This document shows positions 24 to 26,191 of a stretch of DNA of 35,289 bases, piece by piece. A program made the translations under genes and the position numbers. Numbering within the stretch: the first letter of the stretch is position 1; each line of letters opens with the position of its first letter. Source of the stretch: Bacteroidota bacterium (lineage in GTDB: Bacteria > Bacteroidota > Bacteroidia > NS11-12g > UBA955); NCBI GenBank assembly GCA_016868535.1, contig VGGQ01000009.1, forward strand, positions 1 through 35,289, written 5' to 3'. Below the pieces are notes generated by a model that was not told the origin of the DNA, ran no database searches, and was given only the letters and a program-made list of their open reading frames with translations.

Positions 24-1076
24 TTATCTATTTAACAGTACATTTTTAATGTAGGTAACTGCTTGCTTTGCTGCAGGAGTTTTATAGGTAATGGTTACCC
101 TGTATGTACCCGCAGGGCATTCTAGAGATGCACATTTGCCAGTCCAACGGATTGCGGTGCTGTTGCTGACAAATACCTGTTTACCGTTCCTGTCGGTCAC
201 AACCTGATTAAACATAGCAACCTCGGGCAAGGTAATCACGAGTTCATCATTGAGATTATCGCCATTGGGTGTGAACACATCAGGAATGCTGAGACCTGCA
301 TGGCGCTGTCGCGTAACTACACGGCAAATACCTGAATCAATGCAGCCTGCTGACCTGAATACCAGAACTTTCACTTCATATTCCGCGTTCAAATCAGTGT
401 AGGTATGCTGCACCGGATTTCCTGAGCCTGTCTCTCCGTCGCCAAACATCCATGAGCTGTAAGTTCCGGAAGAAATGCCTGCTGCTGCAAATGTCCAGTT
501 ATTATCCGAGCCGGATTGCAGGGGGGTAATTTTTAAATTTCTGCCGCAAGGGGTGGTTACAACTGTGCTGTGATCTTGAACGACAAGCTTGTCGGGCTGT
601 TTTTCTGTCGGTGGCTGCAGCTGATTTGTTTGGTTTGTATGGCCTGTATTTTCGCCTGCACTAACGAAACCTGCAATGACAATAGCATTGTTATTTTCTG
701 AATTACCAAGTATTTGACGGGTGGGTTTACCTTCAGTATTTTGCTTATTGACGGCCTCTGTTAACGGGGTAATTACCTCAATTTTCCTATCAGTAACTTT
801 TCCCTCTTCCTGTGCCTGTTTTTGGGTCGTTTTTTCTGTAATTACAGGCGCCTCATTTTTACTATTGGACAGCACGGACAGAACAGCACCGGTTCCAATG
901 ACAGCAAGGGTAACCCAGGTCCATACCGATTTTACAATCACTATGCCCAAACTTGGGGCAACAGATACGGACACACCGGCAGAAACAGCCTCCCACACAC
1001 CCGGCGGGGGTGTTATTCCACCGTCTTTCAACCCGTTGCGGAACAATTCGTCTATGGAATTTCGTTCGTTTGCCAT
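24..1076 (-). CDS. Probable anti-sigma protein with PKD and T9SS type B-like C-terminal domain
   Basis: This 350-residue protein is encoded 3 nt after the ECF sigma gene, so it is probably its membrane-bound partner. Residues 1-30 form a short cytoplasmic-type head with a PPPGVW motif, as in Bacteroidota anti-sigma proteins. One hydrophobic segment lies at about 49-70 and is followed by a Gln/Thr/Asn-rich linker (about 75-175). A PKD-like fold spans about 195-255 (WMFGDGETGSG, then HTY). The last part, from about 264, has the VFTPNGDNLND signature and a VLLNR ending, typical of the gliding-motility-associated/T9SS type B sorting domain family. Seen: domain order and gene position. Inferred: control of the sigma factor. 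The odd point is a secretion-type C-terminus on a protein with an inner-membrane anchor. It could instead be a T9SS cargo that merely shares the sigma operon. Confidence is high for the gene and moderate for the role. Confidence 0.8.
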   Translation of the reverse strand: MANERNSIDELFRNGLKDGGITPPPGVWEAVSAGVSVSVAPSLGIVIVKSVWTWVTLAVIGTGAVLSVLSNSKNEAPVITEKTTQKQAQEEGKVTDRKIEVITPLTEAVNKQNTEGKPTRQILGNSENNNAIVIAGFVSAGENTGHTNQTNQLQPPTEKQPDKLVVQDHSTVVTTPCGRNLKITPLQSGSDNNWTFAAAGISSGTYSSWMFGDGETGSGNPVQHTYTDLNAEYEVKVLVFRSAGCIDSGICRVVTRQRHAGLSIPDVFTPNGDNLNDELVITLPEVAMFNQVVTDRNGKQVFVSNSTAIRWTGKCASLECPAGTYRVTITYKTPAAKQAVTYIKNVLLNR

Positions 1077-1079
1077 TTT

Positions 1080-1625
1080 CTATCCGTTTCCGGTAAGTTT
1101 AGTCTGTAATATCCTTCTTGCCTTGAAAAGCTGGGTTTTACTGGTGTTTTCACTGATACCCATGAGTTCCGCAATTTGACCGTGATTGTATCCTTCAATA
1201 GCATACAGGTTAAACACGGTTCTGTAACCTACAGGAAGGGTTTGCAACAATGCAAGTAAGTCTTTCATGCCCAGTGCGGGAAAAACGGCGGCTTCCACAC
1301 CCAGATTGGTATGATTTTCCAGTTCATCTGCATAGGGCCGGTGTTTTAGTTTTTTGATAAAATCGAGGCAGGTGGTAACAGCAATACGCCTGGTCCAGCC
1401 TTCAAAAGAGCCCTGAAACCTGAAATTTTTCAGGCTTTCGAACAACTTGATAAAGGATTCCTGCAACATATCTTTGGCATTATCAGTCGATCCGCAATAC
1501 CGCAGGCAAATGGCATACATAACAGGTGCATACTTTTGATACAATGCTTGCTGGGCGAGGGCATTCCCCTCCAGACAGGCCTTGACCAGTTCGCTCTCCG
1601 TAATGTCCGCATTCAATGATGCCAT
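1080..1625 (-). CDS. ECF-type RNA polymerase sigma-70 factor
   Basis: At 181 residues this has the usual size of an extracytoplasmic-function sigma factor. Region 2 lies at about 25-95 (YQKYAPVMYAICLRYCGS, then DMLQESFIKLF). Region 4 lies at about 120-175, with the helix-turn-helix IEGYNHGQIAELMGISENTS followed by KARRILQ. It would recruit RNA polymerase to a specific regulon. The adjacent downstream membrane protein, 3 nt away, is the probable anti-sigma factor, so the pair likely senses an envelope or surface condition. No clear TAnnTTTG box was found in the 75 nt before the start, so the gene may depend on its own sigma factor; this is not shown. The ATG is preceded by no usable in-frame start before the holB gene. 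Confidence 0.93.
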   Translation of the reverse strand: MASLNADITESELVKACLEGNALAQQALYQKYAPVMYAICLRYCGSTDNAKDMLQESFIKLFESLKNFRFQGSFEGWTRRIAVTTCLDFIKKLKHRPYADELENHTNLGVEAAVFPALGMKDLLALLQTLPVGYRTVFNLYAIEGYNHGQIAELMGISENTSKTQLFKARRILQTKLTGNG

Positions 1626-1700
1626 GCAGGTATTTCATAGACCCTGATTATCCTATAGAAGATTTCCGGTATCAAAGGGTTGCTTGACAATAAAATAAAT

Positions 1701-2798
1701 TTAAAATAGCCTGCTGATTTTGAAAGACAGATCTGTGAATATCATTTTCACATTGCCGTTTCTTTCAACCTCATAAATGGCTGCATCCAGCACATCGAAT
1801 ATCCCAAATATCTTTTTATTCGATAACAGTTTGCCTAGTTTTGTCACAAATTCCTTTTCTTGTTCATTAAGTCCGTTGCGCTCCCCGAGATTATCCATCA
1901 CAGCAATTGCCCGCATAATTTCAATTCCGTACAGCAGAAGACCTTTGATGTATTCGCGTCCTTTACCGCTGATATCTTCAATCCATTTGGCAGAGAGAAA
2001 GAAGTTCTTTTTATAGCAATACAACATCCACTGCCTAAACGGCTCCATATACGGACTTTCTGAGTTGGAAGCCAGTTCGAGTGCCTTAAGTAAATCCCCT
2101 CCCGACATCATGGAAAATCGGGCGGCCTCCTCGGGCGTTATTTCCAGTTTTTCAGACAGATATGCAGTTAGATCCGATTCGTCTATAGGCGGAACGCGCA
2201 ACATCTGTGTGCGTGAAACGATGGTACTCAGCAATTTATCAGGCTGGCTGCAAACCAACAAAAACAGGGTGTCTGGCGGGGGCTCCTCCAGAAATTTAAG
2301 CAAAACATTACCTTCCTTACCCAAAAATTCCGGCAGCCACAGCAGCAAAATCTTGTATCTGCTTTCATACGCCTTCATAGATAACTTTCGAATCAGAGCC
2401 CGGCATTCCAGAATGGGAATATTCCCCTGATTATTTTCGGCACTCAACAGCCGCATCCAAGCCTCATAGCTCAGATATGGCTCTGCCTGCAGTGCCTTTC
2501 TCCACTGAGGGTAAAGATCTACGCAGGTATCGCCGGAGCTTGAAGGAAAAGGAAAGGAAAAATGCAAATCGGGATGTGTGAAGGTCTGCATTTTACGACA
2601 GGCATCACATTCTCCGCAACTATCGTCAGGCAGTGGATTCTTACAGAGCAGATAAGCGGCAAATGCTAGGGCTATGGGCAAATTTCCGGCCCCGGACTGC
2701 CCCAGCACCAACTGTGCATGCGGCACACGCCCGCTTACAGCCATGGCTGTCAGCTTTGTTTTTAGCGGTTGTTGCCCTGCAATCTGCTTAAACTGCAT
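1701..2798 (-). CDS. holB: DNA polymerase III clamp-loader subunit delta'
   Basis: This is a 365-residue AAA+ family clamp-loader subunit of the chromosomal replicase. The N-terminus has FKQIAGQQPLKTKL and a degenerate P-loop (GQSGAGN, without the usual lysine), as expected for the non-hydrolysing delta' subunit. Four cysteines around residues 52-67 (C, then CGECDAC) form the zinc-binding module. Further on are LLKFLEEPPPDTLFLLV and the SRTQ motif corresponding to the arginine-finger SRC region. The start codon overlaps the last codons of lgt by 11 nt, so the two are probably translated as one transcript. The C-terminal collar region is less conserved, as usual. Confidence 0.9.
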   Translation of the reverse strand: MQFKQIAGQQPLKTKLTAMAVSGRVPHAQLVLGQSGAGNLPIALAFAAYLLCKNPLPDDSCGECDACRKMQTFTHPDLHFSFPFPSSSGDTCVDLYPQWRKALQAEPYLSYEAWMRLLSAENNQGNIPILECRALIRKLSMKAYESRYKILLLWLPEFLGKEGNVLLKFLEEPPPDTLFLLVCSQPDKLLSTIVSRTQMLRVPPIDESDLTAYLSEKLEITPEEAARFSMMSGGDLLKALELASNSESPYMEPFRQWMLYCYKKNFFLSAKWIEDISGKGREYIKGLLLYGIEIMRAIAVMDNLGERNGLNEQEKEFVTKLGKLLSNKKIFGIFDVLDAAIYEVERNGNVKMIFTDLSFKISRLF

Positions 2799-3570
2799 TC
2801 TGTATTCTGGTTTTATGGTATCTCAGGATGAAAACAAAAACACATACGGAAAGTACCGCTATGGCTATTGCCTGGCTGTGGCTCAACAGTCCATTCAGCA
2901 CAAACCCACGTTCCTCATCCCCACGGTATTTTTCTGTAAAAAATCTGCCGATGGCATACACTATGCCATAAGTAAGAAACAGTTGTCCATCCATCCATTT
3001 CTTTCTTTTCATAAACATCATCAGCCCAATAGCCATAAACAATATCATTGCGTCCCATAACTGGGTTGGATAGAGTGGTGTATCCAAAGGAGATGCGTGA
3101 CAGTTAGGGTTGGTAAACACAATGGAAATAGGCCCGGTCGATACCTTACCATGGCAACAACCTGCCAGCAAACAGCCCAGCTTGCCGAATGCATGCACCA
3201 GGGCCCCGGCGATACCTGCATAATCAAATGCCACCCACGGGTCAATGGATTTCTTTTTAAACCAATATATGAGAACAGGCACGGTCAGCAAGAAAGAACC
3301 ATAGAATACGAAACCATTTCCAATTGACTTGAAAAGCAATCCGGGATTGCTAAAATACCGGGTGGGATCTTCCAGCCAGTAAAAAATCTTGCCGCCTATA
3401 ACAACCGAAGCGAAGCACCACAGAAACATTTCACTCACACCATCTGATTTCAAACCGTGTTTTTTCAGGCTGCCCAGCATATAAGCATATGCCAGCATCA
3501 CGCCGATAAATATCATCAGTCCATAACCCTGAACAGTAAAAGGGCCGAGTGAGAAAATCTCAGGATACAT
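2788..3570 (-). CDS. lgt: Prolipoprotein diacylglyceryl transferase
   Basis: This 260-residue polytopic inner-membrane enzyme attaches diacylglycerol from phosphatidylglycerol to the lipobox cysteine of preprolipoproteins, the first step of lipoprotein maturation. The sequence shows about seven hydrophobic segments, the VIGGKIFYWLED motif, and the family signature around HAFGKLGCLLAGCCHG. The gene is the first of a pair with holB. A TATCTTTG -7 box ends 4 nt before the ATG, so the message may begin at or next to the start codon. The substrates include the small lipoproteins found elsewhere in this window (the TM2 pair and the 43-residue protein). Confidence 0.95.
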   Translation of the reverse strand: MYPEIFSLGPFTVQGYGLMIFIGVMLAYAYMLGSLKKHGLKSDGVSEMFLWCFASVVIGGKIFYWLEDPTRYFSNPGLLFKSIGNGFVFYGSFLLTVPVLIYWFKKKSIDPWVAFDYAGIAGALVHAFGKLGCLLAGCCHGKVSTGPISIVFTNPNCHASPLDTPLYPTQLWDAMILFMAIGLMMFMKRKKWMDGQLFLTYGIVYAIGRFFTEKYRGDEERGFVLNGLLSHSQAIAIAVLSVCVFVFILRYHKTRIQNAV

Positions 3571-3574
3571 GAAA

Positions 3575-3582
3575 CAAAGATA
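3575..3582 (-). promoter_or_regulatory. -7 box of lgt promoter
   Basis: On the minus strand the octamer reads TATCTTTG, a perfect match to the Bacteroidota -7 consensus TAnnTTTG. It ends 4 nt before the lgt start codon. No good TTTG -33 box is seen at the usual distance. The expected transcription start falls at or beside the ATG. Confidence 0.55.
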
Positions 3583-3594
3583 AAAAACTAAGCC

Positions 3595-3993
3595 TTAAGC
3601 GGCAGTATATCTGCGTATTTTTTCTGCTGTTTCAGCAAGTTCTTCCTGCGTTGGCTTGAGTTTAGGAAGGGTGAAGTTTATATCCCCCACTTCGTTCATA
3701 GGTACCAGGTGAATATGTACATGCGGCACTTCCAAACCAATTACGGCAATGCCAATTCGTTTACAAGGTATTGCCATCTTAAGACCTGCTGCCACTTCCT
3801 GCGCGAATGCCCACAAGGCAGTGTAGGCCGTGGTTTCCATATCGAAGATATATTCTACTTCTTTTTTGGGGATAACAAGGACATGCCCATTTACCAGTGG
3901 CATCACATCCAGAAACGCCAGAAAGTCATCTGTTTCGGCAATTTGATGGCAGGGAATTTCACCCGAAACGATACGGCTGAAAATACTGGCCAT
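3595..3993 (-). CDS. HIT-family nucleotide-binding hydrolase
   Basis: This is a 132-residue histidine-triad protein. The catalytic motif HVHIHLVP (His91, His93, His95) is intact near the C-terminus, and the N-terminus has the family pattern IFSRIVSGEIPCHQIAETDDFLAFLDV. HIT enzymes of this branch hydrolyse nucleoside phosphoramidates or dinucleoside polyphosphates; the substrate here cannot be read from the sequence. The gene begins 2 nt after the greA stop codon and is surely co-transcribed with it. The greA-HIT pairing suggests a shared housekeeping expression level rather than a known shared pathway. Confidence 0.93.
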   Translation of the reverse strand: MASIFSRIVSGEIPCHQIAETDDFLAFLDVMPLVNGHVLVIPKKEVEYIFDMETTAYTALWAFAQEVAAGLKMAIPCKRIGIAVIGLEVPHVHIHLVPMNEVGDINFTLPKLKPTQEELAETAEKIRRYTAA

Positions 3994-3995
3994 AA

Positions 3996-4469
3996 TTATA
4001 AAGTAATATCCAAAATTTCGAGTTTTACCTTACCTGCAGGCACGACAATTTCCACCACTTCGCCCTTGGCTTTGCCAAGCAAACCCGCACCGATAGCGCT
4101 TTTTACACTGATTTTGTTTTCCTTGAGATTGGCTTCCGTTTCACTTACCAGCTGATATACAGCCTCTTTTCCCACATTGTGATTCATTATTTTCACTTTG
4201 CAAAGAATAGAAACCTTGCTGGTATCCAATTGCGAGCTATCGATCACACGGGCGTTCGCAATCAATGTTTCCATTTGCCTGATTTTATCTTCAAGATGAC
4301 CCTGAGCCTCTTTCGCGGCATCGTATTCGGCATTTTCGCTCAAATCACCCTTATCTCTTGCTTCGGCGATGGTGTTCGTTATACGGGTTCGTTCTTCTGT
4401 TTTCAGAAAATGCAGTTCATGCTTGATTTTCTCAAGCCCTTCTTTGGTAAAATATTGAATCTCGCTCAT
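3996..4469 (-). CDS. greA: Transcription elongation factor GreA
   Basis: At 157 residues this is the normal length for GreA. It rescues backtracked RNA polymerase by inserting its coiled coil into the secondary channel and stimulating transcript cleavage. The N-terminal coiled coil (about 1-75) carries the conserved tip motif GDLSENAEYDAAKEAQ, with the acidic residues that coordinate the second metal. The C-terminal FKBP-like domain ends in GKVKLEILDITL and includes the SAIGAGLLGKAKGEVV stretch. The ATG lies just 11 nt after the U-tract of a terminator hairpin, an arrangement that may control its expression. Confidence 0.95.
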   Translation of the reverse strand: MSEIQYFTKEGLEKIKHELHFLKTEERTRITNTIAEARDKGDLSENAEYDAAKEAQGHLEDKIRQMETLIANARVIDSSQLDTSKVSILCKVKIMNHNVGKEAVYQLVSETEANLKENKISVKSAIGAGLLGKAKGEVVEIVVPAGKVKLEILDITL

Positions 4470-4554: not shown

Positions 4555-5658
4555 TTATTCTTCGCCGCCTCCCAAACCTATTCTCAAACCGAACGAATGG
4601 GTTCCGTCAAATGGATTGGTAGCACGATAGCTGTAGTCAATGGAAATGATGTTTGACTTGGATCTGATATCATAGCTTATACCTCCGCAAAGGCCGGTAA
4701 ATGCACTGGTACGGTTTTCCTTGTCAAACGCACCTTCCTGGTGAACAAATGCGGTTCTTAAAGAAATAAAATTTTTGTAAGTATACTCCAGGCCCAGCGT
4801 TGTCTGATTGGCTGTAAACGCGTGATTGGTAAAACCAAAACCAACAGTGAGTTTGTTGTTATAGGCATCTGCATCCTTGTCCAGACGTATGTCATAAGAA
4901 CCACTGATATTCAGCAGGGAAGGCAATTTTATCTTATCCACCTTAGGCTGCATAGTCTTGGAGAAATCTCCGTTGGATATGATTGCTTTGTAGCTCAGTC
5001 CATCTCCCTGATGACGCATATCAGGTCCAATATTCTTCATGGAAACACCAAACTTTATGTCATTTTGCTTTATTTTATTAGAAGTTGGACGCAGTGTGGT
5101 CGTATACTGAACACCGGCATCCAGACTCATCCCCATGGCACGGGCATCGGGAATACCTTCATTTACGGCTCTTACTACCATACCGGCAGAAATGTTGTTG
5201 CTGAATGATTTGCTGTAAGCCAGTCCAATATTGGTCATATTTACCCTGTAATTACCAATTCCCCCGTAAGGATTGCTTTCTGTGGTTATTTCAATGGGTT
5301 TGATACCAAACTGCATTACGCTCACACCTAAAGTGCCTCTATCGCCGTCTTCACCCATCTTCTGGCTGAAACCGAAGTTGTTGATGGCGATTCCTGAACC
5401 TAATAGCCACTGGGTTCTATTGAAGGCCAGTTCTGTTTTGCTGAGACTGCGATCCAGGCCGGCGGCATTCATGTACATGGCTTCCACGCCGGTGATTCCG
5501 CCACCATTGGCCCATCCCCAGCCGCTGCTGCGGGCCCATCCGTTGATGGTAAGTTGCATGGCACCCGCCTGTCCCTGACGTTCAGGATTCCCAGCCTGCA
5601 AGGCTGAAAAACCTGCAAGCATGCCCAAGGTAATTACTGCTATATATTTAGTTTTCAC
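4555..5658 (-). CDS. PorV/PorQ-family outer membrane protein
   Basis: A 367-residue protein with a signal peptide (about 1-22, cleavage near LQAG) and the DUF3308/PorV-PorQ pattern: AMQLTINGWARSSGWGWANG, the EAMYMNAAGL segment, FGIKPIEITTE and alternating barrel strands to a glycine-rich end. PorV-type barrels are FadL-like outer-membrane proteins that shuttle T9SS cargo from the translocon to the attachment complex. Here the gene is last in an operon behind a TonB-dependent receptor and a large T9SS cargo-like protein, 19 nt after the cargo stop. This suggests a dedicated partner for that cargo rather than the global PorV. Family assignment is confident; the specific role is inferred. Confidence 0.85.
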   Translation of the reverse strand: MKTKYIAVITLGMLAGFSALQAGNPERQGQAGAMQLTINGWARSSGWGWANGGGITGVEAMYMNAAGLDRSLSKTELAFNRTQWLLGSGIAINNFGFSQKMGEDGDRGTLGVSVMQFGIKPIEITTESNPYGGIGNYRVNMTNIGLAYSKSFSNNISAGMVVRAVNEGIPDARAMGMSLDAGVQYTTTLRPTSNKIKQNDIKFGVSMKNIGPDMRHQGDGLSYKAIISNGDFSKTMQPKVDKIKLPSLLNISGSYDIRLDKDADAYNNKLTVGFGFTNHAFTANQTTLGLEYTYKNFISLRTAFVHQEGAFDKENRTSAFTGLCGGISYDIRSKSNIISIDYSYRATNPFDGTHSFGLRIGLGGGEE

Positions 5659-5677
5659 TGTGTTTTACTTTTAAATT

Positions 5678-8600
5678 TTAATAAGTATCAAGATCAATGG
5701 CGTGCATAATACCGTACCAACGAACGATTTTCTCACCCAGTCCGGGGGCTTTCACGTGTATGAGGTAAAGACCGCTCGAGATAGGCACATTGTTACCGTT
5801 TTTTAAATCCCACTCATAATAGGTCTTCTCATCAGCTTTGCTGATTTTACGGATGAAGTTACCGGCCATATCATACACGGTTATGGTGCAGGTTGGCGGC
5901 AGGTTGGTTATCTTAACTCGGCTGTCAATCGGGCTGTTTTCATACTCGCTGTAGGCCCTGTAAGGGTTAGGCACTACATTCACCAGATCCAGGCTCTTTT
6001 TACCCACTTCCTTGTTTATCGTTGGTGCAATATCAGCAGCATCAAATGAATACATTGGACGTGTGTCGTTGAGTGTGCTGCCGGTGTTAAAGGTAGTGTA
6101 TGCCTTTTGAATGTTAATCTTGAATTTCACATCGGTAGGCGGAACACCATTGGTCATATCATAGCCCGGCGCCATATACGTTGGGATTACCCACATAGCC
6201 TGACTTAGGAAACGGCGTTTTTCCAGTGTACCTGTAGGAACGTTTGCCAGACCGGTACGGAAGCGATTGAAGTTGCCATCATCTTCACCATAGTAACGTT
6301 CACCTTTGATAGCACGGTTTGTCATAGTGAGTCCGGTGCCGAACACATAAATGAAGTGTTTACCACCCAAAGCAGGATAGTTACCATTGTCGTTATACAC
6401 CTTATCTGTAGGATTCCAAATCATATCACGGCCATTTTCACCACCCAGATAGCTGTCTTCACTAAAAGCGATATTCAATCTTTCACCGGTTTCCATATTG
6501 ATGGCATAGCCGGGGAACCAGCTCAGACCGCTACTGCCGGACTGTGGATTCAGGTTTCTGTCACGTGAGGTACCGGCACGCATGGAGAACTTGTAGATAG
6601 AACCTTCGTTGCTATTACGAATTTCATCATCAGACATTTCAATTACGGCGCAGCGGGTCCATTTACTTCTGTCTTTTGTGATTACCAGTTCTATGCTTGC
6701 TATCTCAGACATTGGATTATCTGCGGAACCATTGCTGGTCCAGGCAAAGCCATAGGTATTGCGGCCATTGCTGGGATTGAATGCGGTGCGGGCGGCAAGC
6801 GCATAAGGCGCAATTCTACCGTTCCAGATTCTCTCGTATGCTTGTCCGGGGTCAAGTGCGTTTCCGCCAGCATCGGTAAAGTCATGTAAATGACCATCAA
6901 AGGTTCCGCCGCGTCCATTTGTGCCCGATCGTATCCAGTTTTGCCACAGCGCACCACTGGTTGCTGTGCTTTGCGCATCGTTGTCAACCACGGCTGTAAG
7001 CCACTGTTTGCCGTTATCTTCCCATTCCACAGACCATGAAACCATACTGTTTGATGGATCTGCTTCGGCATTCTCACCCGGATTTTTAACCTGGATAATT
7101 TCAATGCTTAGACCCCAGTCTGCCAGGCTCACACCAGCGTTGGCATTGTTAAATGCACGGTATTTGCCTTTGGCAGGATATTCGAATTTGCGGCCCTGCA
7201 GAGACTCAAACTTAGTACTCAGGGTAGTATCGCCTGCGATGGTATCGCCGGTTGTTTTGTTTACTAAGACCCAGTAGGAATTTGCGGTCATGGAATCTCG
7301 GAGCAAAGTTCCATTTGAAACCGTGCGCTCTTTGAAATAAAGTTCAAACTTGGCATTGGGCACTTTCATGGGATCAACCACCTTCACGGCTACCGGGCCC
7401 ATTCCACCCATGTAGGTTGGGTTATTGCTGATGCCTGTGCTCATGATTTCATCAATGGTTTCTTTGGAAAATTCAAGTACGTTGCCACCATTGCCACGGC
7501 CTTCGATGCGTGTTAGCTTGGGGCCGCTGCCATAGTTACTGTTGAGGGAAGTACCAAAATTTTCTGGCTCGGTTTTGTGAGGAACTGCGCGGTAAACCTT
7601 GATATTTCTGCGGCCCGCAAGGAATTGATTGGGATCAGCCTGCAGAGGATCATCAGAAATAGTGGCATAGGAAAGCAGCATGTAATAGTAAGGCTTGAAG
7701 TCAACTAGGTCTGTATTGGAACCTGTGGCAAAAAGATCTTTTTTGATGCTGTAACTGTGCTGAACACCCTTATCGGCACCATCAACCTTTTCTATGGGAA
7801 TCAATGTAGCCAGTTTGGGATCATAAACCTTGTTGATAATTTGACCGCGGTTGTTCTTGATATCGCACTGGAACAAAAGACGTGCTTTGTCAACATTGTC
7901 AAGATCGCCTGTGTTTACAGTACCATCCTTCAGCTGATAGATCATGTAACCTTCAAACTTGTAGGTTTTGGTCTGGTTGTTGGCATCTTTATATGTTTCC
8001 CGGTAGGCTTCCACCTTATCAGAACCGGTATTGAGCATTTTAAGCACCAGTTCCTGGTTAAGTTCCTGAATCTCCACGTCAGGAGCGTTGGGTCCATCCA
8101 GAATTTTAAAGTTGTTATTGAACAGGGTTTGGGCTTTGTCTGAAGCGAGTTTCAGCACATTTAATGAGCCGAGTGCACCGCCACTGGTAGTTCTCGCCCA
8201 CACAACACCAACCGTGATGCGCTGCACCTGACCTTTTTTCAGTTCGAAAGGTCCTGTACTTTGTATAAAACGTCGGTCACCGGGTTTGTTGCCGCTGGAT
8301 TTTTCAGTCCAGCTGCTGCCCGGATAATCGGGGTCGGTATTGTCTGGGAACATGTATTTTGCGGGTTGACTTCCACCGAAACCGGTTCCGCCGCGGGTAA
8401 CGGTCTGTCCGCCCAGCCATTTACCCTGAAGCAAATTATAGAATTCAGGGGCCAAATCGGGATTACCACGAATTGGATCTGCGTCGTTGTTATAATACAT
8501 GAAGTGACTCAAACCCATCTGATTGCCTGCTGTATCGGTAGGACCTTCAAAATAGTCAACGCCAACGGTAGGCGGATTCAAACCATACCCAAGCACACCT

Positions 8601-9586
8601 TCATCTTCATCATCACCATTATAGCAATATCCAAGGCTCCTGTTCACATCACAACCCACATAGTCATCGGCATAGTTACCCAAGTCGGCATCCACCCACT
8701 CTCCCATATAACAGTCGTTCAAGGTAGTGAAACCACGGTTAATGATTTTTGTGGTGTAAAAGGTCATGTTGTTTACCTCGTCATTGGTTGCAAATGCAAA
8801 ACCAGTAGTCTGGCATTCAATACCAATTGGCTGACCTTGTGTTTCCGAGTGGATGTTTCCACGATCGTTGAAAACCCACCAGATAAACATATCGGGCTGT
8901 CTGTCAACACCATTCTCACTCACAGGGCGTCTTTCGTCGAGTACCGGGTGCTCACCTAACTCGGGTTCATATACACCATCGTTATCAATATCTTTAAATG
9001 GCGCCAAGTAACGAGCTTCGTTCCCTGTTTTGGTGGCGCGGTCTCTGCCTGCAGGCCACTCACGGATGTCGTTGGTCTGAGAAATAAATTTGCTTTCCTC
9101 AAATTGTTCAAGGTCATCGCGGGTAACCTTCCACATGCGGTTGTAGTTTTTGCAACGTGCGGGGTCTGTGCTTGCAGTTGAGGTATCCAGCGGGCCGGGC
9201 CAGAAATCTGAGCCTCTTTGACGGTACGTCATGGCAGCCAATTTAAGGCTTCCGCCATTGTCCTTACCACCAATCCAGATTGCACCGGAAAACAGGGCAT
9301 GCTTACGAACCGCATTGGGATCTGTAATCTTGGGTATTTCATACTTAGGGTTGTTCAAATCCCACCACATATCACCGCCATTGAGCAACTTGGTTCTCAC
9401 GTTATTTATATCAAGGTCTGCGCTGGTTGAGGCTGGTTCGCAGGTATTTGCCAGCATGGTGAGACGCTGATCGTCGTTCTGGGTTGGGCGCACCCTGAAG
9501 GTTCCCACAACAGGTCTGGCATTTGCAGCTGAAGACATTAGTGCAGCAGCAATGATCAAAATACTTTTCACTTTATTGGATTTCAT
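5678..9586 (-). CDS. Large secreted protein with T9SS type A-like C-terminal domain
   Basis: The protein has about 1302 residues. The chosen start (ATG at 9586) gives a normal signal peptide with a KxNKxK head and a hydrophobic core ending SSAANA. An alternative ATG at 9613-9611 overlaps the receptor stop codon as TAATG and adds nine residues. The C-terminal 90 residues follow the T9SS sorting-domain layout: VVPNPYRAYS, then ITVYDMAGNFIRKI, YYEWDLKNGNNVPISSGLYL and a final strand, with an unusual short extension (MHAIDLDTY). The central 1200 residues match no domain I can name; they are rich in Asn, Gly and Asp, with acidic Asp/Asn stretches (DIDNDGVYEPELGEHP) that may bind calcium. Second gene in the receptor-cargo-PorV operon. 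Likely a surface-exposed partner of the receptor; function unknown. Confidence 0.85.
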   Translation of the reverse strand: MKSNKVKSILIIAAALMSSAANARPVVGTFRVRPTQNDDQRLTMLANTCEPASTSADLDINNVRTKLLNGGDMWWDLNNPKYEIPKITDPNAVRKHALFSGAIWIGGKDNGGSLKLAAMTYRQRGSDFWPGPLDTSTASTDPARCKNYNRMWKVTRDDLEQFEESKFISQTNDIREWPAGRDRATKTGNEARYLAPFKDIDNDGVYEPELGEHPVLDERRPVSENGVDRQPDMFIWWVFNDRGNIHSETQGQPIGIECQTTGFAFATNDEVNNMTFYTTKIINRGFTTLNDCYMGEWVDADLGNYADDYVGCDVNRSLGYCYNGDDEDEGVLGYGLNPPTVGVDYFEGPTDTAGNQMGLSHFMYYNNDADPIRGNPDLAPEFYNLLQGKWLGGQTVTRGGTGFGGSQPAKYMFPDNTDPDYPGSSWTEKSSGNKPGDRRFIQSTGPFELKKGQVQRITVGVVWARTTSGGALGSLNVLKLASDKAQTLFNNNFKILDGPNAPDVEIQELNQELVLKMLNTGSDKVEAYRETYKDANNQTKTYKFEGYMIYQLKDGTVNTGDLDNVDKARLLFQCDIKNNRGQIINKVYDPKLATLIPIEKVDGADKGVQHSYSIKKDLFATGSNTDLVDFKPYYYMLLSYATISDDPLQADPNQFLAGRRNIKVYRAVPHKTEPENFGTSLNSNYGSGPKLTRIEGRGNGGNVLEFSKETIDEIMSTGISNNPTYMGGMGPVAVKVVDPMKVPNAKFELYFKERTVSNGTLLRDSMTANSYWVLVNKTTGDTIAGDTTLSTKFESLQGRKFEYPAKGKYRAFNNANAGVSLADWGLSIEIIQVKNPGENAEADPSNSMVSWSVEWEDNGKQWLTAVVDNDAQSTATSGALWQNWIRSGTNGRGGTFDGHLHDFTDAGGNALDPGQAYERIWNGRIAPYALAARTAFNPSNGRNTYGFAWTSNGSADNPMSEIASIELVITKDRSKWTRCAVIEMSDDEIRNSNEGSIYKFSMRAGTSRDRNLNPQSGSSGLSWFPGYAINMETGERLNIAFSEDSYLGGENGRDMIWNPTDKVYNDNGNYPALGGKHFIYVFGTGLTMTNRAIKGERYYGEDDGNFNRFRTGLANVPTGTLEKRRFLSQAMWVIPTYMAPGYDMTNGVPPTDVKFKINIQKAYTTFNTGSTLNDTRPMYSFDAADIAPTINKEVGKKSLDLVNVVPNPYRAYSEYENSPIDSRVKITNLPPTCTITVYDMAGNFIRKISKADEKTYYEWDLKNGNNVPISSGLYLIHVKAPGLGEKIVRWYGIMHAIDLDTY

Positions 9587-9612
9587 CGGATTTCTGTAAT
9601 TGAAGTAGAACA

Positions 9613-12600
9613 TTAATTAAAATTCATACGTATACCAATACGGGCATTTCTGGGCGCCCCAAAATTGCCGGTTTGAGAGTTTAACAGGATTTTATATAGA
9701 TCGTTGTAGCTCTGTGCGTCAATCTGGTTGCGCACCAGCAACTGACCGGCCTGCGAGTTTAGGAAGCCATCATCCATAGGCTGGCCTGTGAATGGAAACA
9801 CACCCAAAACATTCTTGGTGTTGAGCACGTTTTGCACCCAAACAAACACATTCAGCTGCAGGGGATTGTCTTTACCTGAACGCTTCAGGCTAAAGCCTTT
9901 GGTAATATTGATATCGATGGTTTGCTGCCATGGCAGACGGGCACCAAAAGGAACACCTTTAATCTGCGCTCTGTCCACCGCACCAATCTGCACCGGGCGG
10001 GTAGTTGGTGTGTAAGGCGATCCACTGTAAGCATTTGCAATAATATTAAAGCTGGTAAATTTGAAAATCTCTTTTCCACCAACCACAGGGCCGGTATAAA
10101 GATTTTTCTTGGTTTTAAAGTCTTTACCACCGGCCCATGCCCAGGTAGCAGAAAGCTTCACGTTGTGGCGAATATCCAGTTCACCCAGCGGAATAACGTT
10201 TCTCAGGTTGGGCTGGTTGCTGGCAATAAGGGCAGCTTGTGAGTTGATATTGGAGCCTGTACCGTCGGCAAACTGCATCATGTAGCTGGCCAGCAGGCTA
10301 AGCGGTCCAATTTCCTCCATAACAAAGGTTCCGCGGAAACCGGTAATGGTTGCGAAATCGATATTACGGTAGGTGGTGTAAGTAACTGGAAAGCCTTGGG
10401 CTATTTGATACAGACCGAAGTCACGGCGAATTTCTGAGTAGGAAGCAGCCATCTCGAGACCTTTGTTTTTCTTGCGGCCAAACAGTTGCTTGTAACCCAC
10501 TTCATAGTCGGTTTTTACACGGCTTTTAAGATCACCGTTTGATATGGTAGAACCCTGACGGTTCTTCAGGTAGTACAATTCGTCAATGGTGAGGAAAGAA
10601 GCACCTGCATTGGGTCTTTGTGCAAGTACATCATAACTCACATAGAAAGTTTTACGGCCGGGTTCCAGCGGGAAGCTGAACCAAATACGGGGTAGGAAGT
10701 TCAGTGCGGGGGTAAAATCGCGAAGTGCATCTTTGCCCAGCAACAGGCTATCGGTTTTGGTAGCTACCAGGTAGGGCGCTATACTGCCATTTGAAGTCTG
10801 GTTGGCCAGAAATTCAGGATTGCGCTGTTCACTTCCGTCCGCGTTGAACCAGCGATCACCATTGCGGTAACCCACAATTTTGGTTGGCGATTTTAAGTCG
10901 TTGACATATACCGCGTAATCACTGCCGATGTTATCCGGATGGGCCACATCAAGTCCATTGACTTTCTTAACCTCAGCCGCGGTGCGGATTGGATATAATG
11001 TATAAGGATCTTTCAGCACATACTGGTTGGCATCGTAGCTTTCCATACGCAGTCCAAGACGGAAAATCAGGTCTTTGAACTGGAACTGATCCTGCAACCA
11101 GGCAGCCATATAAACAGGGCGGAAAGCACCAATGGTGCGCATTGTGGGATTGTTTAGGAACTCTTCAATGGCAGGCTTTCTGAAGACCTTGTTGCCCATG
11201 TGGTCATAACCGAAATAGCTTACGTATCCATTACCATTGTTCAGCAGTTCGTCGGAAGTGAACATATCGATTGAGAAGGCACCGGGTTTGTAGCTGTTGA
11301 TGTCCACAAATGTGCGCTCGTCCACAGGTTTACCGTAAACGTCACGGGCTCCCTGTGAAATCAATTTGTTTCGGAAGGAGCGGTCAAAGTTGCTTTGGTC
11401 GGCATAGTTAATAAGGCGGTTATAGCGAACCGTATCGGTAAAAACACCGTTGGCATCATAGCTGAGAATGGGGTTGTTGCGATCCAGTTCAGAAATGTGA
11501 CGGTTCATCAGCTGCCCCATAAGAATCCAAAGGCCGTTTGCATCCAGACCATAACCACGTGAAATTTGCTGTTCGTAGTAAACACCCGCCTGTAAATCAT
11601 GCGGTGTGCGCTCGCGCCCACCTACAGTTTTGGGTTTAACCTGCATCTGGCCGATGGCAAATAGTGAGAAACGCTGTGCCTGGTTTTTGTTGTAGGCGCT
11701 GGTTACACCGCCGGGTGTTCCCCAAAGAGAGTATACGTTGTTGGGATTGAATCCATTCATCAGACCCTGGCTTTGAAATACCTGAGAGGAATTTCTTACA
11801 CTGAAACCACGGCTAGCATAGTAATCATATACATTTTGGGTGTAACGTGCTCTTGTAGGATTGAGATTGCTTGGGTTAAAAGTCATCAATGTATCTGCAT
11901 AACCCACCAGCTCCCAGTAATTTCTCAGCTGAACAGTGTTTCCAAACTGGTCTGTTACCGTGCGGGGCTCTTTATTGGGATTCTGTTGTCCGTCATAGTT
12001 AGAGTATTGGTATACAGGCATTGGATATGACTGGAATGTACCTACATAGCCATAATCAAAAATATTGTTCAGGTGATTGGCATCGCGGCCCATGCCGGAT
12101 ACATCCTGATACTCAAGGCGTGCGGTGTAGAATGCACTTTTGATGCTGCTGTTTTTATCAAGTTTAAAATTTTGGGTAAACTGCAGGTAGCTTCGAAAAG
12201 TGGTATTGTCACTACGGGCATTGTTTTTGTAGTTCATGATGGAGTTGGTGGCCGCAATCCCCTGGCTGTAGAAATAAGAAGCGTAACCGGTAACTGTAAT
12301 CTGGTTATTGGGACGGAATTCAAGTTTTCCGATAAAGTTACCTTGATACAGGGGTGAATTGGGACGTGCCTTCAGGCGCTCGAAATCGCTTTCGCGCAGG
12401 TAAGCACCACGATGTACAAATCCATTGGGAGTAATAATCAGCGGGTTCTCTTCCATCTCGCGCAGTTTGTCTTCTTTTACCACATATACACCTGTGCGGG
12501 TAGGAGCGGGATCTTTGAAATAACCGAGGTTACCATTCAAAACAAAGCCCAGCCTCACAAGCTCTTTGGTAGTGCCGTTTTCGTCTTTGTATTTTTTCTT

Positions 12601-13365
12601 CCACAGCGGACCTGAAACAAAACCTTCAACAGAATTGTATCCGAAAGGATCCAAACCCTGAGAGGTAATACCTTCTAGGGCAGTTACCAGTTTAGCGGTA
12701 GCACCGCGTGAGGTGTAGCTGAATGCTCCACCGGTAAGGTCACCATACATGGCGGGAATACCTCCGATATTGGCAGCGATGGCATCTGTACCCAAAGTGG
12801 GCAGGGCACCTGAGCCGATTACACGCATGCCATCAATGAATGTTCCGTTACCATCAGCGCGGGTACCTCTCACCGAAACACCCTGTCTTGTGGCTACTAC
12901 TGCAGCGTTGGTTGCAATTACGGCATTCAAACCGCGCTGACTACCTTGCAGCAGTTGCTTGTTGGATACAGAACGTTCGTTTTTAATGAGATCCACGGGC
13001 GTTTTTTTGGCAACACCGGTAATAACCAGTGTTCCCATCCCTTGGGTAAGAGACACGTCTTGTTGGGGGTTAAGGCCTACTGAAAGAGGAATCTCGAGTT
13101 TTACGGGATTGTAACCCCCTTTTTCCACTTCCATTTCATAGGTCCCAGGATCCAAGGTCTGGAATACGCAGTAACCATCGCCGTCTGTGGTGTCTGTTTT
13201 TACCAGAATGTCGTTTTTAAACATTTTGATCACGGCACCCGAAACGTAAGCACCTTTAAAAGTCACCTTTACACGGAAGTCGGCAAAACTGGTCTGTGCC
13301 ATGCCTGCTGCCGCACTGAGAGTGAAAATGGCTACAAAAAGAAATTTAAGTATAGTTCTGTTCAT
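9613..13365 (-). CDS. TonB-dependent receptor with carboxypeptidase-regulatory-like N-terminal domain
   Basis: About 1250 residues. The start at 13365 gives a signal peptide (MNRTILKFLFVAIF... ending GMAQ); in-frame codons further upstream begin with TTG and lie before the predicted transcription start. Residues about 25-105 form a carboxypeptidase-regulatory-like beta-sandwich (DGYCVFQTLDPGTYEMEVEKGGY). A plug domain follows (about 115-230, with GVSVRGTRADGNGTFIDG). The rest is a 22-strand-type barrel ending NARIGIRMNFN. Such receptors take up large or scarce nutrients with energy from TonB. No SusD-like partner is present; instead a T9SS cargo and a PorV-like barrel follow, so this is not a classical polysaccharide-utilization pair. 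The ligand cannot be read from the sequence. Confidence 0.88.
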   Translation of the reverse strand: MNRTILKFLFVAIFTLSAAAGMAQTSFADFRVKVTFKGAYVSGAVIKMFKNDILVKTDTTDGDGYCVFQTLDPGTYEMEVEKGGYNPVKLEIPLSVGLNPQQDVSLTQGMGTLVITGVAKKTPVDLIKNERSVSNKQLLQGSQRGLNAVIATNAAVVATRQGVSVRGTRADGNGTFIDGMRVIGSGALPTLGTDAIAANIGGIPAMYGDLTGGAFSYTSRGATAKLVTALEGITSQGLDPFGYNSVEGFVSGPLWKKKYKDENGTTKELVRLGFVLNGNLGYFKDPAPTRTGVYVVKEDKLREMEENPLIITPNGFVHRGAYLRESDFERLKARPNSPLYQGNFIGKLEFRPNNQITVTGYASYFYSQGIAATNSIMNYKNNARSDNTTFRSYLQFTQNFKLDKNSSIKSAFYTARLEYQDVSGMGRDANHLNNIFDYGYVGTFQSYPMPVYQYSNYDGQQNPNKEPRTVTDQFGNTVQLRNYWELVGYADTLMTFNPSNLNPTRARYTQNVYDYYASRGFSVRNSSQVFQSQGLMNGFNPNNVYSLWGTPGGVTSAYNKNQAQRFSLFAIGQMQVKPKTVGGRERTPHDLQAGVYYEQQISRGYGLDANGLWILMGQLMNRHISELDRNNPILSYDANGVFTDTVRYNRLINYADQSNFDRSFRNKLISQGARDVYGKPVDERTFVDINSYKPGAFSIDMFTSDELLNNGNGYVSYFGYDHMGNKVFRKPAIEEFLNNPTMRTIGAFRPVYMAAWLQDQFQFKDLIFRLGLRMESYDANQYVLKDPYTLYPIRTAAEVKKVNGLDVAHPDNIGSDYAVYVNDLKSPTKIVGYRNGDRWFNADGSEQRNPEFLANQTSNGSIAPYLVATKTDSLLLGKDALRDFTPALNFLPRIWFSFPLEPGRKTFYVSYDVLAQRPNAGASFLTIDELYYLKNRQGSTISNGDLKSRVKTDYEVGYKQLFGRKKNKGLEMAASYSEIRRDFGLYQIAQGFPVTYTTYRNIDFATITGFRGTFVMEEIGPLSLLASYMMQFADGTGSNINSQAALIASNQPNLRNVIPLGELDIRHNVKLSATWAWAGGKDFKTKKNLYTGPVVGGKEIFKFTSFNIIANAYSGSPYTPTTRPVQIGAVDRAQIKGVPFGARLPWQQTIDINITKGFSLKRSGKDNPLQLNVFVWVQNVLNTKNVLGVFPFTGQPMDDGFLNSQAGQLLVRNQIDAQSYNDLYKILLNSQTGNFGAPRNARIGIRMNFN

Positions 13366-13419
13366 TTGTTTTTTTTCTTTGGTCGATGAAAGCCGCTTTT
13401 TCGTCCGGCCTTTCGATTG

Positions 13420-13451
13420 CAAGTTTACCCAAAAAACAATGATTTAACAAA
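13420..13451 (-). promoter_or_regulatory. Promoter of the TonB receptor-cargo-PorV operon
   Basis: The minus strand shows TTTG (13451-13448), a 20-nt spacer and TAAACTTG (13427-13420), one mismatch from the Bacteroidota consensus with ideal spacing. Transcription would begin near 13415, leaving a leader of about 50 nt before the ATG at 13365 and excluding the longer TTG-start reading. Confidence 0.6.
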
Positions 13452-24717: not shown

Positions 24718-25326
24718 TTAGTCATCGTAGCTGCCATCTTTAGGCTGAAGATCGCGCATCAGGATTCTAATAAAATCTATGAAAGTCCAAATTCCTAAGC
24801 CGCCGAGAGTAAGCAACTGAAGAACACCCTCCAGGGTGTAACCCAGGTAAAAGCGGTGAATGCCTATACCACCCAAAAAGAAACACAACAATACTGCTAC
24901 CATCCAGCTCTTAGATCCGCTATTCTTGTCAGAAGCAGCATCCGGAGACTTCTTTACAGCCTTTTCAGCGAGTGTTTGCAAAGATTTTACGGGAGCAACA
25001 GAACCCTGTCTCTTAGCAACATGCAGCTTGGTTGCAATGGTCTTAGATTCAGCAACTGAAACATTGGAAGACACGGCAGCTGTGCTTTCAACGGAGGCGG
25101 GAACAGAAACCACCGATGTAGCAGCAGGCATTGCCTCTTCAGGAGCAGCAACATCCTGAGATGCCATGGTTTTGGTTTGCTTTGCCTTGTGGGAAGAGGC
25201 GAAACCCGATTGAATTCCGTAACCTGATTCACCACCACGGGTGATTGCATTTCTTTCAACGGAACAAGAGATGAACACGGTGGTGGCAGTGAGGAACAGT
25301 GCGAATTTGGTAATTACTTTTTTCAT
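24718..25326 (-). CDS. TM2-domain lipoprotein (copy 1)
   Basis: 202 residues. The N-terminal signal ends at a probable lipobox (FISC, Cys21), followed by the conserved SVERNAITRGGESGYGIQSG stretch. Residues about 50-135 are a low-complexity Ala/Ser/Val/Thr/Lys linker. The C-terminal 65 residues form a TM2 domain (LLCFFLGGIGIHRFYLGYTL, then LGGLGIWTFIDFIRIL), two short membrane helices around a conserved loop. It is a paralogue of the next upstream gene. Having both a lipid anchor and membrane helices is unusual. The role of TM2 proteins in bacteria is not established. A degenerate -7 box (TAATTTCG at 25355-25348) lies before the start. Confidence 0.85.
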   Translation of the reverse strand: MKKVITKFALFLTATTVFISCSVERNAITRGGESGYGIQSGFASSHKAKQTKTMASQDVAAPEEAMPAATSVVSVPASVESTAAVSSNVSVAESKTIATKLHVAKRQGSVAPVKSLQTLAEKAVKKSPDAASDKNSGSKSWMVAVLLCFFLGGIGIHRFYLGYTLEGVLQLLTLGGLGIWTFIDFIRILMRDLQPKDGSYDD

Positions 25327-25433
25327 AGTATAATTATTTGGTATTTACGAAATTATGACATTAACCCTGCATTTTAGTCATTTTTCTAATGTTCTGTTAT
25401 GGACATATTTTGAACAATTAAAACAAGTAAAAT

Positions 25434-25457
25434 AAAAAAAGCGGCTCTTGCCGCTTT
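25434..25457 (-). terminator. Intrinsic terminator after the second TM2 gene
   Basis: On the minus strand AAAGCGGC and GCCGCTTT pair around a four-base loop and are followed by a run of seven T. The arm shares 12 identical bases (seven A then GCGGC) with the terminator of the neighbouring TM2 gene. Confidence 0.85.
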
Positions 25458-25479
25458 GGGGAGTGGTTAACGGCTGATT

Positions 25480-26091
25480 TTAGATATCTTCATAGATACC
25501 ACAGCATGGCTCCAGCTTTTTCATGATGATGCGCACCAGGTCAATGAGCCACCAGATGCCCAAACCTCCCAAGGTAAACAATTGCACCCATCCCTGCCAG
25601 TTGTAGCCGAGATAGAAACGATGCAATCCCAATAACCCAAAGAAGAAGCACAGAAAAAGTGTCAAGTACCAACTTTTGCTTTTACCTTTAACCCCATTTG
25701 CCACAGCCGGTGCCTGTTTCATTGTCTTTTCGGCATGCAAAGATTGCTCAGCTTTTTGGGCCGTTTTGGAAAATATATTGAAAGCGGCAGCGATGCCACG
25801 GTTAGAAACTCCAGTATTTGAAACACCCACTGACGATACCTCTATTTCCCGGTTAACAGCGGAGCTTTCCATATTTTCAGCAACGGTAGCATTTTCTGTT
25901 TGAAGTGTATTTTCAGCGGTGGCTGCCATGGTCTTACCGGTTTTCATGGTTGACTTAGGGGCTGTGGAGGCCTGAGATCCGATGCCAAAACCGCTTTCGC
26001 CGCGTGAAACTGAATTTCTTTCCACCGAACAAGAAAATAGAAACATAGCCATTCCGAAGAAAAGGCTGAAAGTTTTTACAGTATTTTTCAT
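25480..26091 (-). CDS. TM2-domain lipoprotein (copy 2)
   Basis: About 203 residues from the ATG at 26091; another ATG two codons upstream at 26097 is possible. The signal core is followed by a cysteine in FLFSC, then SVERNSVSRGESGFGIGSQ, closely matching the sister protein. A linker rich in Ala, Thr, Glu and Ser (about 45-130) leads to the TM2 domain (FLCFFFGLLGLHRFYLGYNW, then LGGLGIWWLIDLVRIIMKKL). The pair clearly arose by tandem duplication and diverged mainly in the linker. Each copy has its own terminator. Function unknown; a paired envelope structure or heteromer is possible but only inferred. Confidence 0.85.
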   Translation of the reverse strand: MKNTVKTFSLFFGMAMFLFSCSVERNSVSRGESGFGIGSQASTAPKSTMKTGKTMAATAENTLQTENATVAENMESSAVNREIEVSSVGVSNTGVSNRGIAAAFNIFSKTAQKAEQSLHAEKTMKQAPAVANGVKGKSKSWYLTLFLCFFFGLLGLHRFYLGYNWQGWVQLFTLGGLGIWWLIDLVRIIMKKLEPCCGIYEDI

Positions 26092-26191
26092 GCACATTAT
26101 TGTTTTACACTACAATATTAGGGTTTGCACACCAAAGATGCGCAGATTTTTTTTCAAACAATATTTTTAGGGGTAATATTGGGTTGTGAAA

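Follow-up and report, generated by a model that had tools for sequence, protein, structure and literature searches.

The following described systems come closest to the locus that we report here. The SusC-SusD pairs: in these, as in our locus, the gene of a TonB-dependent receptor adjoins that of a large extracellular partner, and some genomes have many paralogous copies, several of them near glycoside hydrolases. The SprB-SprF and PG1035-PorP pairs: in these adhesins, likewise, a surface protein exported by the T9SS has, judging from gene order, a FadL-type barrel dedicated to it as shuttle and anchor; type B C-terminal domains (CTDs) use cognate PorP/SprF barrels, which also anchor them (PMC12618676, PMC9143113). 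The PorQ-PorZ and PorV-PorU attachment complex: here a PorV-family barrel holds a surface protein with its CTD unremoved, and PorZ retains its CTD on PorQ (PMC10202324). The chu_1276-1280 cellulose cluster of Cytophaga hutchinsonii: this proposed PUL-like cluster lacks any SusD homologue but includes a TBDT-like barrel (PMC12016534).

The trio of genes described below, coding for a TonB-dependent receptor, a T9SS-type surface protein (the cargo) and a PorV/PorQ-family outer-membrane barrel, differs from each of these. Compared with SusC-SusD, its receptor gives no SusC-family match, the partner is a T9SS-type substrate and not a SusD lipoprotein, and there is a PorV-family barrel in addition; most trio genomes have few SusD genes or none. 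Relative to SprB-SprF and PG1035-PorP, the barrel is of the PorV/PorQ family, the unit invariably includes a TonB receptor, and its CTD resembles type A. Relative to the PorQ-PorZ and PorV-PorU complex, the trio barrel falls well short of the PorV and PorQ models and stands in a clade apart; PorQ and a PorV fragment are encoded separately in the window's genome. The chu_1276-1280 cluster, set against the trio by its description only, is described as containing an endoglucanase and a binding protein that is SGBP-B-like. Neither dedicated barrels nor SusCD-like pairs are new in kind; what is new is combining them with a PorV-family carrier. A search of published open-access papers returned no description of the trio.

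Organization of the locus

The window, that is the whole stretch of 35,289 nucleotides analysed here, is contig C9 of a genome of 1.9 Mb with a completeness of 99.8%; its receptor, cargo and barrel genes all lie on the minus strand (Table 1). A first-pass annotation had read these genes as one operon of exactly this composition, which is confirmed by the coordinates and by the match of the barrel to the PorV/PorQ-family model NF033709 (114.2 bits, above the curated cut-off of 90). The same annotation had described the genes as tightly packed. The 19-nt gap between cargo and barrel stands, and the TAATG overlap of receptor and cargo is indeed present in the sequence, but it was rejected as the true cargo start: the alignment of the homologues begins at M10 (9586, MKSNK...), so the actual receptor-cargo gap is probably 26 nt. 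In relatives this gap is mostly 10-50 nt.

The promoter that had been placed ahead of the operon also holds, as a Bacteroidetes-type motif, TTTG-N20-TAAACTTG, which is kept 5' of the receptor in the close relatives L057, L059 and L061-L064. A scan for sigma-70 promoters and terminators did not exceed shuffled sequence, and its sigma-70 part returned nothing beyond chance at the promoter site (13451-13420), a result that fits expectation for the phylum, and the Bacteroidetes motif was adopted instead.

Table 1. Coordinates of the trio and its constituent features in the window.
Feature	Coordinates	Strand	Remarks
Bacteroidetes-type promoter	13420..13451	-	TTTG 13451-13448, N20, TAAACTTG 13427-13420; basis: sequence and relatives
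TonB-dependent receptor, 1,250 aa	9613..13365	-	Signal peptide, N-terminal CarboxypepD_reg; no SusC-family match
T9SS-type surface cargo, 1,311 aa	5678..9613	-	Likely start M10 at 9586
Cargo N-terminal domain, residues ~50-505	8099..9466	-	Best-conserved region; super-beta-sandwich-like predicted fold
C-terminal sorting domain, residues ~1213-1299	5717..5977	-	FlgD/Por-type Ig fold by profile
C-terminal tail past the usual CTD end	5681..5716	-	YGIMHAIDLDTY here; 53-homologue comparison
PorV/PorQ-family outer-membrane barrel, 367 aa	4555..5658	-	GTG start at 5658; distinct from PorV and PorQ

The receptor frame opens with an ATG at 13365 and closes with a stop at 9613-9615. Its CarboxypepD_reg domain scores above the cut-off and its Plug match is weak; against NCBIfam at E 1 it has zero matches, hence no SusC-family assignment, and in the PDB its sequence finds just two marginal matches, both unrelated. 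That the receptor has no SusD partner, as first noted, is true of the whole window genome, in which PF07980 has no match anywhere. In some relatives (L069, L094, L096, L097 and L099) a second related receptor lies 5' of the trio (near 300-4050), with ~1.1 kb between. Elsewhere in the window, at 24718-26097 on the minus strand, two small proteins that resemble each other are encoded in tandem, and their start, SCSVERN, is lipoprotein-like.

The cargo and its N-terminal domain

The cargo combines a signal peptide, as read from the sequence, with a Por/FlgD-type C-terminal domain. It is single-copy in the window genome, where no paralogues were found. The core of this ~1,300-aa protein belongs to no Pfam family, and a cargo profile searched against the PDB by sequence gave no match for it. 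Residues 50-1230 were modelled with AlphaFold at a pLDDT of 85 and a pTM of 0.72, and several beta-rich stretches are predicted C-terminal to the N-terminal domain. Structure prediction of the cargo alone, as had been suggested, also covered the N-terminal domain modelled by itself (pLDDT 86, pTM 0.87), with weak fold matches: Foldseek retrieves dextran dextrinase, exo-arabinanase, GH116 and GH94 enzymes, at a best E of 8e-6 and with low TM-scores (TMq 0.27-0.38). What these enzymes have in common is a non-catalytic super-beta-sandwich. The fold of the cargo, at first taken as unknown, is in this way narrowed for its N-terminal ~450 residues, the predicted structure of which weakly resembles that sandwich of carbohydrate enzymes; it may be read as a slight hint of carbohydrate contact and carries no family assignment.

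A family of ~500-aa proteins, found in G036, G041, G013 and other genomes and absent from the window genome, matches cargo residues ~100-460 only. In the MAG G004 the cargo is split over two overlapping frames (L067, 4678-8509), reflecting a frameshift or an assembly error.

Conservation of the trio and its paralogous copies

A cargo match is present in 58/58 genomes sampled between the levels of genus and order, a set that includes the window genome, and in 277 of 345 good Bacteroidia genomes; of 346 searched, 68 are without one. The receptor lies directly 5' and the barrel directly 3' of the cargo in all 51 relatives with long enough flanks (51/51), and of 80 loci taken from named genomes, 72 contigs were judgeable and 68 of these gave the full trio. 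L076 and L102, which make up half of the four that did not, are additional copies of the cargo, and their genomes do have a full trio (L097, L098). Beyond class Bacteroidia the cargo is a smaller protein (~1,010-1,260 aa), and the same three genes stand in the same order in 20/20 loci with wide flanks. A search for this gene order in other genomes had been among the checks proposed for the idea of a self-contained unit: the order, whose absence was to have counted against the idea, is conserved across the phylum, and strongly supports such a unit. The housekeeping genes for greA and a HIT protein are also kept near the Bacteroidia trio; synteny by descent therefore explains part of the conservation, and gene order alone is no proof of a complex.

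Vertical synteny does not explain the multi-copy trios of the two distant genomes examined, G459 and G439, which have 15 and 7 complete trios respectively, each with a receptor, a sorting-domain protein and its own PorV-family barrel in the same order. The neighbours of these paralogous trios include GH9, GH3, GH13, GHL10 and GH94 with a glucoamylase-like protein, as well as esterases, peptidases and FadL proteins. Glycoside hydrolases adjoin 8 of ~19 multi-copy trio loci; they account for 10/30 neighbours against 2/20 random control ORFs (two-sided p 0.09), where the control count includes one GH2 and one heparinase-like lyase and some of the neighbours were chosen by eye, so that the enrichment is suggestive only. 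Following this comparison the glycoside-hydrolase neighbourhood was rejected as proof. The window's own trio has no adjacent carbohydrate gene. FadL/TodX-type channel genes lie directly 3' of the barrel in two of the paralogous trios, each from another genome (L218, 2367-3893; L209, 7709-9265), suggesting a sub-type for hydrophobic substrates.

Genomes with the cargo seldom carry many SusD genes: in a class-wide draw, at least 6 SusD matches were found in 14/16 cargo-negative genomes, one of these 16 having a marginal cargo match, versus 2 of ~93 cargo-positive genomes (Fisher), a contrast that tracks a small number of families, with descent as a confounder.

A dedicated barrel and a distinct sorting domain

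The first-pass annotation had taken the barrel to be private to its cargo. Against the PorV equivalog NF033710 it scores 52.4 bits and against the PorQ equivalog NF033711 38 bits, far below the respective cut-offs of 250 and 220; no PorP/SprF model in Pfam or NCBIfam matched it at E 1. An identity with PorV2 (NF052325) was rejected for the window barrel, with no match at E 1. The single barrel sequence finds nothing in the PDB, and the barrel profile finds PorV (6h3i, E 3.7e-16) and distant channels, with FadL/TodX channels at 0.05 or worse and no BamG chain among the matches, which lend no support to an identity with BamG. The window genome encodes the SprA translocon (PF14349, 552.9 bits, in a frame of 2,121 aa), a PorQ on C13 (284.8 bits) and a PorV that is present as a C-terminal fragment at the end of contig C44 (NF033710, 136 bits over 100 residues); the operon barrel is thus a third member of the family and not PorV. 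In a tree of the family all 53 trio barrels fall on one side of PorV/PorQ (support 98); the 32 barrels that go with tailed cargos form one group (support 99).

The CTD of the cargo is borderline against the type A model TIGR04183, with 19.7 bits for the whole protein and 24.2 bits in six frames around a cut-off of 23, and PorV could therefore still handle it. This score speaks for a reading in which PorV carries the cargo like any ordinary type A substrate and PorU then cleaves it or anchors it by A-LPS, the barrel being a FadL-like channel or another outer-membrane protein that is only co-regulated with receptor and cargo. The barrel does come from a FadL-like family, and in F. johnsoniae every type A CTD is reported to be recognised by PorV (PMC12618676). 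We nevertheless consider it unlikely. The barrel profile matches PorV far better than FadL/TodX, the pairing with a barrel recurs in each of the 15 and 7 trios of the multi-copy genomes, and the barrel-adjacent CTDs group apart from the ordinary CTDs of the same genomes. In the G459 and G439 stretches the former end in a K-F-A-I-I-K type or a tailed form, whereas the T9SS proteins that are not next to a barrel mostly end in K-K-M-M-L-L-K. In a tree of 83 sorting domains, a set chosen via barrel adjacency and the CTD-end pattern, a single branch (SH-aLRT 100) divides the 51 barrel-adjacent domains from the other 32, against a mean of 25.7 changes needed when the labels are shuffled; with few columns in the alignment, it is this split that is strong and not the internal order of the tree.

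What these comparisons show is a conserved unit of three genes in which each cargo has one PorV-family barrel dedicated to it, with distinct clades of both sorting domains and barrels. The one-to-one pairing in multi-copy genomes, the separate barrel clade and the separate sorting-domain subtype all support a private barrel, and this in genomes that encode PorV as well (together with PorQ in that of the window).

Past the usual CTD end the cargo carries a tail of ~12 residues, in which position -5 is D and the final residue F or Y in 53/53 homologues; this conservation led us to reject a chance extension. Type A CTDs have a near-invariant lysine near the C terminus that is needed for contact with PorV (PMC10994853), and the tail is therefore a candidate element for recognition or retention.

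A proposed T9SS-dependent counterpart of SusCD

Taken together, these observations make it reasonably probable that the trio serves uptake across the outer membrane in a SusCD-like way but is built differently: the T9SS would export the extracellular partner, and a cognate barrel of the PorV family, not PorV, would hold it. On this view the TonB-dependent receptor would pair with a large protein on the outside of the cell, a T9SS substrate and no lipoprotein. The cargo would be exported via SprA, where the operon barrel, not PorV, would pick it up through its distinct sorting-domain subtype; it would most likely remain on the barrel, uncleaved, beside the receptor, and there capture or cap the ligand in a SusD-like role, much as the first-pass annotation had suggested in speaking of a lid or ligand collector. 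That the barrel may bind the cargo as it leaves SprA and retain it by the sorting domain is argued by analogy with SprB-SprF, PG1035-PorP and PorZ-PorQ (PMC12618676, PMC9143113, PMC10202324). The constant presence of the receptor, along with the gene context, suggests the cargo as its uptake partner, with a putative contact between the two and a nutrient, possibly a carbohydrate, as the putative ligand. The weak super-beta-sandwich match, the glycoside hydrolases next to multi-copy trios and the SusD contrast also speak for such a function.

The trio could instead be an accessory unit of envelope biogenesis or of the T9SS, acting in the manner of BamG/BamH on BAM or as an Oar-like exporting receptor, and no nutrient importer. 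It is usually single-copy and kept in small genomes (1.7-2 Mb), it has the housekeeping flanks greA and HIT, and the FadL-like BamG carries a surface subunit in the BAM of Bacteroidota (PMC12611786, PMC12578637). BamG/BamH, however, are reported to be universal (PMC12611786), whereas many complete Bacteroidia genomes are without the cargo; the PDB matches of the barrel profile, moreover, include PorV and no BamG, and paralogous trios multiply next to degradative genes. We regard this reading of the window-type trio as quite improbable. Very improbable, in our view, is a structural surface layer or adhesin anchored by the barrel, where the receptor would share the operon on grounds that have nothing to do with the cargo: the cargo is large, with the beta-rich stretches predicted past its N-terminal domain, and anchor barrels do serve type B adhesins (PMC9143113), but a receptor homologue stands 5' of essentially every judgeable cargo across the phylum and in every complete paralogous trio.

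If the trio is the uptake unit that we favour, it supplies a hypothesis, at the level of function, about a protein of ~1,300 aa that is found in most sampled Bacteroidia genomes. A broader proposal is conceivable, though we hold it with less than even confidence: a second, T9SS-based architecture of TonB-linked uptake in Bacteroidota, possibly older and in many lineages commoner than SusCD, in which each receptor has a partner with its own sorting-domain subtype and PorV-family carrier. Were this true, the T9SS would have many dedicated type-A-like carriers and not PorV alone, amounting to a third substrate/carrier class besides type A/PorV and type B/PorP-SprF. It would also give a reason for the numerous PorV-family genes in many Bacteroidota genomes and indicate how lineages poor in or devoid of SusD build surface partners for their TonB receptors. 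The NCBIfam model NF052325, curated as 'putative type IX sorting system protein PorV2', weakly matches the barrels of distant trios as well as PorV; its existence may mean that curators already suspect more PorV-type carriers.
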